A stretch of DNA of 64,000 bases from an uncultured Opitutia bacterium (GTDB taxonomy: Bacteria > Verrucomicrobiota > Verrucomicrobiia > Opitutales > UBA953), in NCBI GenBank assembly GCA_945957395.1, contig CAMFKE010000001.1, positions 248,001-312,000 on the forward strand, written 5' to 3'. The position numbers and the translations under genes are program-made. The notes beneath the pieces were generated by a model. That model was not told the DNA's origin. It was given only the letters and a program-made list of their open reading frames with translations, and made no database searches. Below are positions 53,736-56,248 of the stretch, piece after piece. Position 1 is the first letter of the stretch; each line of letters begins with the position of its first letter.

Positions 53736-54014
53736 TCAGCGGCCGCCTTCGGAGTCCTTGGGCTCGGGTTTCGCGGAGGTGTCGCCGTCTTTCGCGGCTT
53801 GGTGGCAGCAGGGGGCGTCGTCGCAGGAGGTGCCCCATCCCATCTTTTTCAAAAAGATCTCTGGCGGGCAGAATCCGGTGAAGGCGGATTGGACGAGGTT
53901 GAGACCTGCGAAGCAGGTGAGCAGCAGCCACCATTCGCTGACGAAGTGTACGAGGGCCGCACTGGTGAGCACCACGGTGCCGGCAATGAGTCGGATGATG
54001 TGTTCGCGTTTCAT
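53736..54014 (-). CDS. DUF2892 inner-membrane protein
   Basis: 92 residues from the Met at 54014 (MKREHIIRLIAG). Two spans (VVLTSAALVHFV and WWLLLTCFAGLNLVQSAF) are followed by GFCPPEIFLKKMGW, diagnostic of DUF2892/YgaP-like membrane domains. A Cys cluster (SCDDAPCCH) lies in the C-terminal tail and could bind metal. The family often accompanies rhodanese or sulfide-related genes; none is here. Confidence 0.85.
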   Translation of the reverse strand: MKREHIIRLIAGTVVLTSAALVHFVSEWWLLLTCFAGLNLVQSAFTGFCPPEIFLKKMGWGTSCDDAPCCHQAAKDGDTSAKPEPKDSEGGR

Positions 54015-54151
54015 ATCCCGGAATTTTATGCGAGCGGGCCGCGCGGGCAAATCCTTCGTCTCACGCCCGATTTGGGCGGTGGTGCGCAGGTCGCCGCAGT
54101 CGTCACCGCGGGCAGGTCGCCCCGCACTTCGTCGCGAGTGATGCGGTCATT

Positions 54152-54301
54152 TTTAACCACGAAAATCACGAAACACACGAAAGCCAGTCCCCGTCCGACA
54201 AATTCGCCGCGCGCACGGACCTCTGCGGTCTCCGCGTTGAATCCTCCGAAAACGGAGCGCCGCCGGAGGCTTTCGTCTGTTTCGTGATTTTCGTGGTTAA
54301 A
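54152..54301. repeat. intergenic inverted repeat with octamer-periodic arms (CACGAAAN family)
   Basis: The left arm at 54152-54183 (units CACGAAAA, CACGAAAC, CACGAAAG after TTTAAC) matches the reverse complement of the right arm at 54270-54301 at 31 of 32 positions. The 86-base loop carries another octamer-like run (about 54217-54241, CTGCGGTC, TCCGCGTT). Same architecture as the heptamer elements upstream. Confidence 0.88.
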
Positions 54302-54329
54302 CGGTTGTTCGCCATTGGCGGCCTTTTCC

Positions 54330-54490
54330 TGTTCAGGTCTCACGCCAAGCCGCGAAAAGAGGAGACGGTACCGAATCCCCCCGCCGGATGAGCAGCGGAC
54401 ACAGAGCGTCGATGAATAGCGGTACGCCGGGCCTTTGAAAAGGCACCTCCCGGTGGTGCTCTCCGTGGGCTCCGTGACTCCGTGGCGAAT
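54330..54490. repeat. further octamer-periodic intergenic runs
   Basis: About 54338-54360 reads TCACGCC-AAGCCGCG-AAAAGAG in eight-base steps. About 54459-54487 reads CTCCGTGG, GCTCCGTG, ACTCCGTG in near eight-base steps. Together with the inverted repeat they fill the 506-base gap 54015-54520, which holds no gene I can support. Confidence 0.65.
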
Positions 54491-54520: not shown

Positions 54521-56248
54521 TCAATCGCCGCCGAAGAGGGCGCCGAGGGATCGAGAGCCGAGGCGGGAGCCGGCCCAGAGCAGGGCGCCCAAGGCGAGCA
54601 TGGACCAGGCGGCGAGGGCGCAGGCGAGGAAGGGGCCGTCGCCGAGCTGGCCGGCCGTCTCGTAGAGGGCCTTGGCCAGGGGGAAGTGTTCCTTCTTTTG
54701 AGCGAGCACGAGCGAATCGGAAACCTCCAACAGGCACCCGGCGAAAGCCGGCATGGCGCCGGCGAGAAGCCCGGCGGACACGATGGGCAGCGTGATGCGC
54801 CGGAAGGTGCGCGCGGGGGGCGCGCCGGCGGAGGCCGACGCCTCCTCGTAGGCGGGCGGGGCGACGGCCAGCGCGGCCGAGGCGGCGCGGGTGAGCAGGG
54901 GCAGTTTGCGCACGGCGTAGGCCAGGATGAGCAGCGCCACCGGGTTGCCCGCGGGGGCAAGCCAGGCGAGCTCTCGTCCGGGTTGGGAGGCGGCGAGGTA
55001 GCCGAACGCGAACACCACGCCGGGCACGGCGAGCGGCGCCATCGCCAGGGCGTCCAGCACGGCGGCGCCGGGGGCGCGGCGGCGCACGCAAAGCCAGGCG
55101 ACGAGCAGCCCGGCGGCGGTGGCGAGGGCCGTGGCGGCGGCGGCGTAGGCGAGGCTGTTGGCGGCGGCGCCGGAGGTGGCCGGGGTGGAGAGCGCCTCGA
55201 CGAGGTTGCCGGCGGTGAAGCGCGCGGGCAGGAGCGTGCGATACCAGTCTTTGGCGAGAGCCATGAGTACGACCGAGGCGTGCGGCAGCATGGCCAGCGC
55301 GAGGAAGGCCGACAGGGCGGCGGTCAGCCCGAACGCGGCCGGCGCGCCGAGCCGTTTCGCGGTGCGGCTGCGGGAGGCGCGGGCGGGGGGCGCCTTGGCG
55401 GAATCGCCGAAAGCCAGCAGGGCGGCGCCGTGCAGGGCGACGGAGACGGCGAGCATGAGCACGATGAGCGCGTAGGGCGTGGCGTCCGCGCCGAGGTCGC
55501 GCAGCCCGTCGAAGATCTGCACGGCGGTGATGCGTTCGTAGCGAAACAGGAGCGGCACGCCCAGGTCGGTGAACGCATGGATGAACGCCAGCACGCCGGC
55601 GGCGAGCAGGGCAGGGCGCACGGCCGGCAGTGTGATCTTGAGGAAGCGGCGCGCGGGCGAGGCGCCCAGGCAGGCGCCGGCTTCGTCCAGCGCCGGGTCC
55701 ACCGCCGCGAGTCCGGCGCGCAGTTGGAGGAAGGCGAGAGGGTAGGCGCCCAGCGCCGCCACGGCCACCATGCCGGGGAATCGGAACTCGCCGAACCAGT
55801 CGTTGCCGAGCGCGTCGGGCGCGAGCAGGCCGAGTTTGACGAGCAGGGCGTTGAACGCACCGGATCGGCCGAAGACCTGGGCGAGCCCGAGGGCGCCCAC
55901 GAAGGGGGGCAGGATGAGCGGGGCCAGCAGCGCGGCGCCGAAGAACTTTTTCAGGGGGAAGTCGTGTCGGTCGAACACCCAGGCCAGCGCGAAGGCGGGC
56001 AGCAGGGTCGCCGGCACCACGGCGAGTCCGTAGAGCGCCGCATTAAGCAGGCCCTCCCGGTAGGTCGGGTTGGCGATAACCGAGGCGAACCAGACGCCGG
56101 TGAGCTCGCCGGACGGGGCGAGGAAGGCGCCCCCCAGCACGCGAATCAGCGGCGGCAGCAGCAGGGCCGACAGGACCAGGCACGAGGCCGCCACGAGCAG
56201 GGTGTCGCGGCCGGGGCGGGGCAGGCGTCGGGGAAGGCGAAAGGGCAT
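54521..56248 (-). CDS. fused ferric-type ABC transporter permease (FbpB-like)
   Basis: 575 residues: two binding-protein-dependent permease domains in one chain with about twelve spans. Each half carries an EAA loop: EAGACLGASPARRFLKITLP (~residues 210-230) and EEASASAGAPPARTFRRITLP (~485-505), where the ATPase docks. This arrangement is typical of ferric iron (FbpB/SfuB) importers and of some 2-aminoethylphosphonate or thiamine systems. Neither ATPase nor binding protein lies in the window, so the substrate is open. Confidence 0.87.
   Translation of the reverse strand: MPFRLPRRLPRPGRDTLLVAASCLVLSALLLPPLIRVLGGAFLAPSGELTGVWFASVIANPTYREGLLNAALYGLAVVPATLLPAFALAWVFDRHDFPLKKFFGAALLAPLILPPFVGALGLAQVFGRSGAFNALLVKLGLLAPDALGNDWFGEFRFPGMVAVAALGAYPLAFLQLRAGLAAVDPALDEAGACLGASPARRFLKITLPAVRPALLAAGVLAFIHAFTDLGVPLLFRYERITAVQIFDGLRDLGADATPYALIVLMLAVSVALHGAALLAFGDSAKAPPARASRSRTAKRLGAPAAFGLTAALSAFLALAMLPHASVVLMALAKDWYRTLLPARFTAGNLVEALSTPATSGAAANSLAYAAAATALATAAGLLVAWLCVRRRAPGAAVLDALAMAPLAVPGVVFAFGYLAASQPGRELAWLAPAGNPVALLILAYAVRKLPLLTRAASAALAVAPPAYEEASASAGAPPARTFRRITLPIVSAGLLAGAMPAFAGCLLEVSDSLVLAQKKEHFPLAKALYETAGQLGDGPFLACALAAWSMLALGALLWAGSRLGSRSLGALFGGD

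Follow-up and report, generated by a model that had tools for sequence, protein, structure and literature searches.

An intergenic hairpin with heptad-triplet arms in an uncultured Opitutia bacterium, and the GxxExxY nuclease genes that similar arms enclose

Paired arrays of short tandem repeats have been described in Geobacter metallireducens, whose class 2 sites each consist of TCTCCGTS[Y] in three tandem copies, paired on opposite strands at variable distance and listed as putative IHF/HU sites in the accessible portion of the 2009 paper (PMC2700814). Four tandem GTTGCTYN repeats on opposite strands are given there as well, and the intergenic regions of G. bemidjiensis are, in the available excerpt of PMC2996986, filled by direct repeats of 6 to 42 nucleotides. 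The G. metallireducens sites resemble the arms described here in being three or four tandem short repeats, paired and intergenic, and TCTCCGTS[Y] is our CACGGAG heptad. They differ in coming from one genome and in being read as regulator sites, and the accessible portion of that paper mentions no enclosed nuclease (PMC2700814). REPIN-RAYT systems also consist of short intergenic hairpins in many copies with a single-gene family as presumed mover, but there the enzyme is Y1/HUH rather than PD-(D/E)XK, and the arms here are three tandem heptads (PMC3116915 and PMC2817692, both in excerpt). The Coxiella 23S rRNA intervening sequence is a 428-nt element with one small ORF (PMC4990558, in excerpt). 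Such a selfish element of about 430 nt with a single small ORF is similar in plan, and inverted tandem arms are likewise found around PF05635 genes that lie outside rRNA; however, going by the same excerpt, its S23p protein is a four-helix bundle and not a nuclease, it lies in rRNA, and its arm sequences are different (PMC4990558).

Of the known systems, REPIN-RAYT and the rRNA intervening sequence offer the closest working models for our locus, which belongs to neither. It lies between protein genes with a loop that holds no ORF, no Y1 gene was found in its genome, and motif arms lie on both sides of none of 17 Y1 genes. A search of the open-licence literature found no paper joining such repeats to GxxExxY, a search there for the octamer strings by their letters gave nothing relevant, and the accessible parts of the open-licence papers that name GxxExxY are not about repeats. 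Intergenic heptad strings abound in environmental bacteria and are easily misread as spurious proteins, but the literature we found gives them no accepted explanation. New here is that the arms enclose a GxxExxY nuclease gene and that arm type follows the nuclease clade.

We analyzed a 64-kb stretch of DNA (the window) from an uncultured Opitutia bacterium whose genome (2.79 Mb) is 96% complete. The window copy, at 54152-54301, is an inverted arm pair of 34 nt, 97% complementary, spaced by 82 nt. Its features and surroundings are as follows.

53736..54050, minus strand: flanking gene, YgaP-like transmembrane protein (PF11127, 2e-10)
54152..54185, plus strand: left arm; TTTAAC, three CACGAAA heptads (54158, 54167, 54176) joined by AT and CA, then GCC
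54186..54267, no strand: loop, 82 nt, no recognisable gene or ORF
54268..54301, minus strand: right arm; 33/34 positions match the left arm's reverse complement; heptads at 54289, 54280 and, with 1 mismatch, 54271
54341..54359, plus strand: partial arm of the CGCCAAG class (CACGCCAAGCCGCGAAAAG); in islands elsewhere this class adjoins CACGGAG arms
54461..54485, minus strand: three-heptad arm of the CACGGAG class (CTCCGTG x3 on the plus strand)
54521..56248, minus strand: flanking gene, ABC transporter permease (PF00528, 6.5e-19)

An earlier note on this DNA had reported an arm pair of 32 nt with 31/32 matched. The inverted pair is real, with the slightly greater length and the 33/34 match given above. 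The period of eight assigned to it does not hold, since CACGAAA heptads with 2-nt linkers give a period of nine (CACGAAANN). A neighbouring octamer run was rightly noticed, but its CTCCGTG units start at 54461, 54470 and 54478, a spacing of nine and then eight. What had been called a 'CACGCCAA-type' run is present as a single partial arm, CACGCCAAG C CGCGAAAAG. Neither this partial arm nor the CACGGAG arm has a partner recognised nearby. Folded as single-stranded DNA, the window copy reaches -49.6 kcal/mol against -24.7 +/- 3.1 for shuffled sequences (z = -8.0), and 0 of 200 shuffles folded as well. CACGAAA occurs 12 times in the window, five of them inside the window copy.

The genes on either side of the window copy run in the same direction. 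With inverted arms of three tandem heptads, the copy shares one defining feature of the GxxExxY element class that we propose; no nuclease gene lies between them, the loop being only 82 nt, and we therefore file it as a gene-less relative and not as a full member. A target-site duplication is ambiguous because TTAA is palindromic. The junction is kept in none of the relatives searched, and no empty site was found among them. An Rfam scan of the window returned a single match, a tRNA. We also considered an intrinsic terminator and rejected it: four terminator-like sites were found against 0.9 +/- 1.1 in shuffled sequence, none of them with both arms as the stem. Elsewhere in the window, a run of the pentamer GGCGA at 2361-2410 was the sole strong short-period tandem run in a stricter scan with periods 7-10.

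Five more paired CACGAAA copies are present in the genome (C7:57798-57936, C2:241870-242016, C10:14045-14182, C9:13777-13908 and C8:46651-46795), supplying the further copies that the earlier note had suggested looking for. Between the loops of the six copies only two of 30 comparisons exceeded z>3, window copy with C2 and C2 with C8, and both were weak. Four bare copies on one viral contig have diverged but common loops, and the 18 rows of a family in genus g87 have a mean loop identity of 0.63. Since loops are recognisable in these younger copies, we take the unrelated loops to have drifted while the arms stayed under constraint. Sister arm classes (CACGGAG, CACAGAT, CGCCAAG and CGCAGAG) form intergenic islands at C8:146-153 kb, C1:104-115 kb, C2:44-47 kb and C2:300-302 kb, some of which hold a hairpin nested within another. 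The island at C8:145.9-153 kb (L048) has nested hairpins of mixed arm classes, with a CACAGAT pair within a CACGGAG pair at C8:146467-146637, and was called as many spurious ORFs.

Arms avoid genes, as a comparison of intergenic with coding sequence, also suggested earlier, bears out. Within 303 kb of stretches from the genome, called ORFs take up 67% of the bases, yet 67 of 73 three-heptad arms fall outside them (33% expected to do so, p = 1.7e-25), genes being called with a home-made GC3 caller in regions picked around arm matches. The strict three-heptad pattern is found in 115 of the 188 genomes of the class. The reversed pattern gave 13 matches over all 188 genomes (summed by hand), and the window's own genome has 39 real matches vs 0 reversed. 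The impression that such strings are familiar from environmental genomes was thus sound, and they flank one nuclease family across phyla.

The arms enclose a gene for a GxxExxY protein (TIGR04256/PF13366) in an arm-gene-arm order, a gene-family link missed by the earlier note, which gave no mechanism. Motif arms lie on both sides of the gene, pointing inward, at 27 of 44 GxxExxY loci, and at least one arm is present at 36. Only 0/17 Y1-transposase loci have both arms and 1/17 an arm on either side; the numbers for PF05635 (23S_rRNA_IVP) loci are 1/20 and 1/20. Arm density is 3.03/kb within 300 bp of the GxxExxY gene vs 0.245/kb beyond, and the one-mismatch motif matched 137 times at the 44 loci vs 28 times in reversed sequences. 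With the strict motif, five of the 10 best-scoring GxxExxY loci have both arms and nine have at least one, against 0/10 and 0/10. Among 18 further loci, nine have both arms and 11 at least one, while three others carry ACAGGAT- and CACTAAT-type arms that lie beyond the motif and were recognised by eye. Eight of the 44 loci from the class lack arms by motif, and three lack flanking repeats by a model-free test.

To look across phyla, GTDB genomes were scanned with one protein from the window's own genome, giving 76 loci from many phyla. One of these (L311) was left out as too short, and windows shifted by 900 bases served as controls. Without use of the motif, inverted repeats around the gene (z>4) were found at 47 of the 75 loci vs 4 of 138 shifted windows; the repeats are CACAGAG, CACGAAG, CGCAAAG, CGCCAAG and similar. 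Most of the 28 loci without flanking repeats are from Bacteroidota. The GxxExxY profile scored over its cut-off in 116 of the 188 genomes of the class, including 102 of the 115 arm-positive vs 14 of the 73 arm-negative genomes. Three gene families that often accompany repeats were compared in this way: the odds ratio for co-occurrence with arms in these 188 genomes (Fisher) is 33 for GxxExxY (p 1e-22), 5.5 for PF05635 (IVP) and 3.1 for PF01797 (Y1), from hand-compiled counts in which Y1 is, for some genomes, an at-least number among the 22 candidates scored. The window's own genome has arms, seven GxxExxY genes and no Y1_Tnp match.

The gene-bearing unit is 416-580 bp long, mostly near 440, and ends in the arms plus about 6 palindromic bases. 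At the loci read, it follows one gene's stop codon and precedes the start of the neighbouring gene, as between gatA and gatB. Outer terminal repeats exceed the 95% level of the null in only three of 32 elements, the other 29 having flanks no more alike than the null. Other gene families are flanked too. The model-free test found inverted repeats of other sequence at 13/17 Y1 loci, but at only 1/9 top loci. The design principle that the earlier note saw as common to heptamer elements is borne out by PF05635 genes, which have inverted repeats of other short tandem units at 17/20 and 9/9 loci. The specificity for GxxExxY therefore rests on the heptad motif and the match of arm to nuclease, not on inverted repeats alone. 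An arm-first search of viral contigs found GxxExxY inside only one of 22 CACGAAA pairs, and none inside three viral-contig pairs with 301- or 554-nt spacers. With one query protein, GxxExxY was found in eight of 72,556 plasmid records, all at <60% identity, and in none of 50,697 phages.

In 33 GxxExxY sequences, E22, D62, E72-x-K74 and Q86 are invariant and Y90 is present in at least 90%. The enclosed gene has both the family profile (PF13366, 8e-42) and the conserved residues. Sequence and model fit a minimal PD-(D/E)XK nuclease, predicted to be of the DNA type with an intact active site. The QxxxY motif we take to be as in RecB/Cas4 proteins. An AlphaFold model of a member from Acidobacteria (pLDDT 96.5) aligned best in VIA-align with SSO0001 (4ic1; Z 9.2, rmsd 3.3, 95 residues). 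Next, among ties, came the Holliday-junction resolvase Hjc (1gef; Z 6.9, rmsd 3.1, 83 residues), and the excision-controlling factor XisH (2okf) aligned with Z 6.1 and rmsd 3.0 over 86 residues, Z values below 8 possibly reflecting just a common fold. A sequence search found no solved structure for GxxExxY, Foldseek used by itself found nothing at E <= 0.001, and Cas4 profile matches were weak. The core fold and the E-D-ExK-QxxxY residues are common to GxxExxY, the Cas4/RecB-like proteins and Hjc. Unlike these, GxxExxY is a stand-alone 115-aa protein between tandem-repeat arms.

Arm type tracks the nuclease clade and not the host. The two arms of an element have an identity of 0.84 compared with 0.60 between elements (largest of 2000 permutations 0.65), so the co-variation of arms that the earlier note proposed to check is seen across gene-bearing elements. 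Arm identity correlates with protein identity (Mantel r = 0.41, or 0.36 when only pairs at <55% identity are used; p = 2e-4, the lowest value that 5000 permutations allow) over the 62 loci kept once those with a stop in the translation were dropped, the 127 given including the dropped ones. As arms and gene are linked, common descent alone yields part of this correlation; at such protein divergence, 25-nt non-coding arms should have been randomised. On a tree of 71 proteins, built from few columns and with 29 of 67 inner branches open, arm type (heptad ending in A/T or in G) changes twice vs a shuffled mean of 16.8, and 0/500 shuffles were as low. The phylum label changes 18 times on that tree, a count with up to two extra changes if the window's class, labelled separately, is put in one phylum with Verrucomicrobiota. 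One clade of 16 proteins (SH-aLRT 96) has all A/T arms. In the first set, A/T-ending heptads accompany 8/8 GxGF vs 4/54 GxGL proteins (hand-counted; p 1.5e-7). Among further loci, five GxGF proteins with both arms fit the A/T rule, and two GxGL proteins of the KPYE kind have T.

Both arm types occur in the window's own genome, each nuclease with its own (L164 with CACAGAT, L162 with CACAGAG), which argues that the arms are read by the nuclease and not by a host regulator. CACGAAA arms like those of the window copy belong to a subclade of four nucleases (L142, L155, L359 and L364); L360 of the same subclade has CACGGAA. On a viral contig, a CACGAAA pair (L432) encloses a protein resembling this subclade. 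None of the seven GxxExxY proteins in the window's own genome is of the subclade, and none has CACGAAA arms. With no such nuclease found in the genome, the window copy is probably an orphan.

On balance we favour an account in which the window copy belongs, without a gene, to a class of small mobile elements built around the nuclease. Each of the two inverted arms of a member would be a short unit, usually C[AG]CNNAN with a 1-3 nt linker, repeated three times in tandem; gene-bearing members would be arm-gene-arm units of ~440 bp that encode GxxExxY. That arms and nuclease form one element we regard as very probable, and recognition of the arms by the nuclease as likely; whether the nuclease drives movement is evenly balanced. 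The data show the enclosure, the conserved active site, the arm-clade match and the dispersal; binding, cutting and copying are the steps that we infer. The nuclease may bind the heptad triplets of its own clade, either as duplex or as an extruded hairpin or cruciform, and may cut at the arms. Repair would then copy or insert the unit at another intergenic site, and gene-less copies would be mobilised in trans and then decay.

With arms that can be read as a code for the nuclease clade and not the host, a repeat class so far without explanation becomes an enzyme-substrate system open to testing, and gene-less copies could be assigned to a source nuclease lineage. The PD-(D/E)XK class is not, to our knowledge, known to act alone as a transposase. 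If the nuclease moves the unit, this would be a mobile element based on an enzyme class new as a lone transposase. More tentatively, and with rather more doubt than confidence, we suggest an unrecognised kind of mobile element in many phyla, in which a lone minimal PD-(D/E)XK nuclease moves a hairpin unit with clade-specific heptad-triplet ends without a known transposase class and seeds gene-less copies that make up much of the 'octamer string' content of environmental bacteria; PF05635 genes with their own heptamer arms would be a parallel system.

Signs of movement come from two genera. In genus g18 the gatA-gatB gap holds arm-gene-arm in two genomes (G169 and G189) and other DNA in two more (G122 and G188). 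The presence of the element thus differs between sister species, with no clean empty site. This gap is a hotspot for different small insertions; G122 has an unrelated small ORF there and G188 a tandem hairpin of CATTTAGC units (L326/L327). A 177-bp unit whose arms are CACGGAT is found in genus g87 at dozens of places in three genomes (G154, G187 and G126) with the same sharp ends. Identical 5-bp direct repeats lie outside seven of 10 distinct two-ended copies vs 16 of 306 crossed rows. The seven of 10 are distinct copies counted by hand, from 18 rows of which 14 were identical, with copies in up to two orientations, and in one of the three failures (L210) the right end was misplaced by the script. 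The duplications and the dispersal together indicate that arm-bearing units do transpose. Several copies in this family (L208-L231, L390-L414) have a common extra ~77 bp in the right arm.

The g87 unit speaks for ordinary MITEs. On that reading a DDE transposase moves miniature elements in which the arms are internal repeats, while GxxExxY would be cargo or a second selfish gene that happens to have the same ends. In G154 and G187 the unit has further ends of its own, CCTA...TAGG, no GxxExxY was found inside it there, and its 5-bp duplications suggest a DDE transposase in that genus. Gene-bearing elements, however, end at their arms, as the 29 of 32 ordinary outer flanks indicate. They show no general target-site duplication in a comparison of 189 arm pairs drawn from loci picked for arms or nuclease, and a cargo role leaves the match of arm type to nuclease clade unexplained. 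We consider the MITE reading unlikely.

An RNA-level element similar to the 23S rRNA intervening sequence would have its arms pair in the transcript, with RNase III excising the hairpin, the host operon undisturbed and movement rare. Gene-bearing copies do lie between co-directional genes such as gatA and gatB, and the 428-nt Coxiella element, as the excerpt describes it, resembles the ~440-bp arm-gene-arm unit in size and layout (PMC4990558). We find this reading quite improbable, as GxxExxY, its active site intact, is predicted to be a nuclease of the DNA type and the element is intergenic, not in rRNA. Very improbable, in our judgement, are host regulatory sites in which paired tandem octamers bind IHF/HU-like global regulators. 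They were proposed for the class 2 sites of G. metallireducens, from sequence alone according to the available portion of the paper (PMC2700814), whereas here the arms crowd at one gene family and their type follows the enclosed nuclease, with both types in one genome. Movement of REP/REPIN elements by a RAYT (Y1 tyrosine) transposase has next to no chance, although short intergenic hairpins in many copies and the 13/17 Y1 genes with inverted repeats of other sequence would suit it. The window's own genome, 96% complete, has 39 strict arms, yet none of its 4 candidates matched Y1_Tnp; of 17 Y1 genes, 0 are enclosed by motif arms, and 6 of 60 genomes with at least 10 arms have no Y1. RAYT/Y1 as mover was accordingly rejected for the window's own genome, where it is contradicted short of a Y1 gene hidden in the missing 4%.

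Beside the nuclease-driven element that we favour, PF05635 four-helix-bundle genes with heptamer arms are a possible parallel system. Many of the PF05635 loci with z>4 (L112-L121 and L182-L201, the window's own genome included) have short tandem units, e.g. AGTTGATAG or GTGGCTA. In arm-rich genomes, 13 of the 17 Y1_Tnp genes (L165-L181) lie between strong inverted repeats of other sequence, which is what REP-type repeats would lead one to expect. In IMG/VR contigs, 45 stretches (L415-L459), either putative viral DNA or bacterial flanks, carry CACGAAA x3 arms, and several contigs have more than one.
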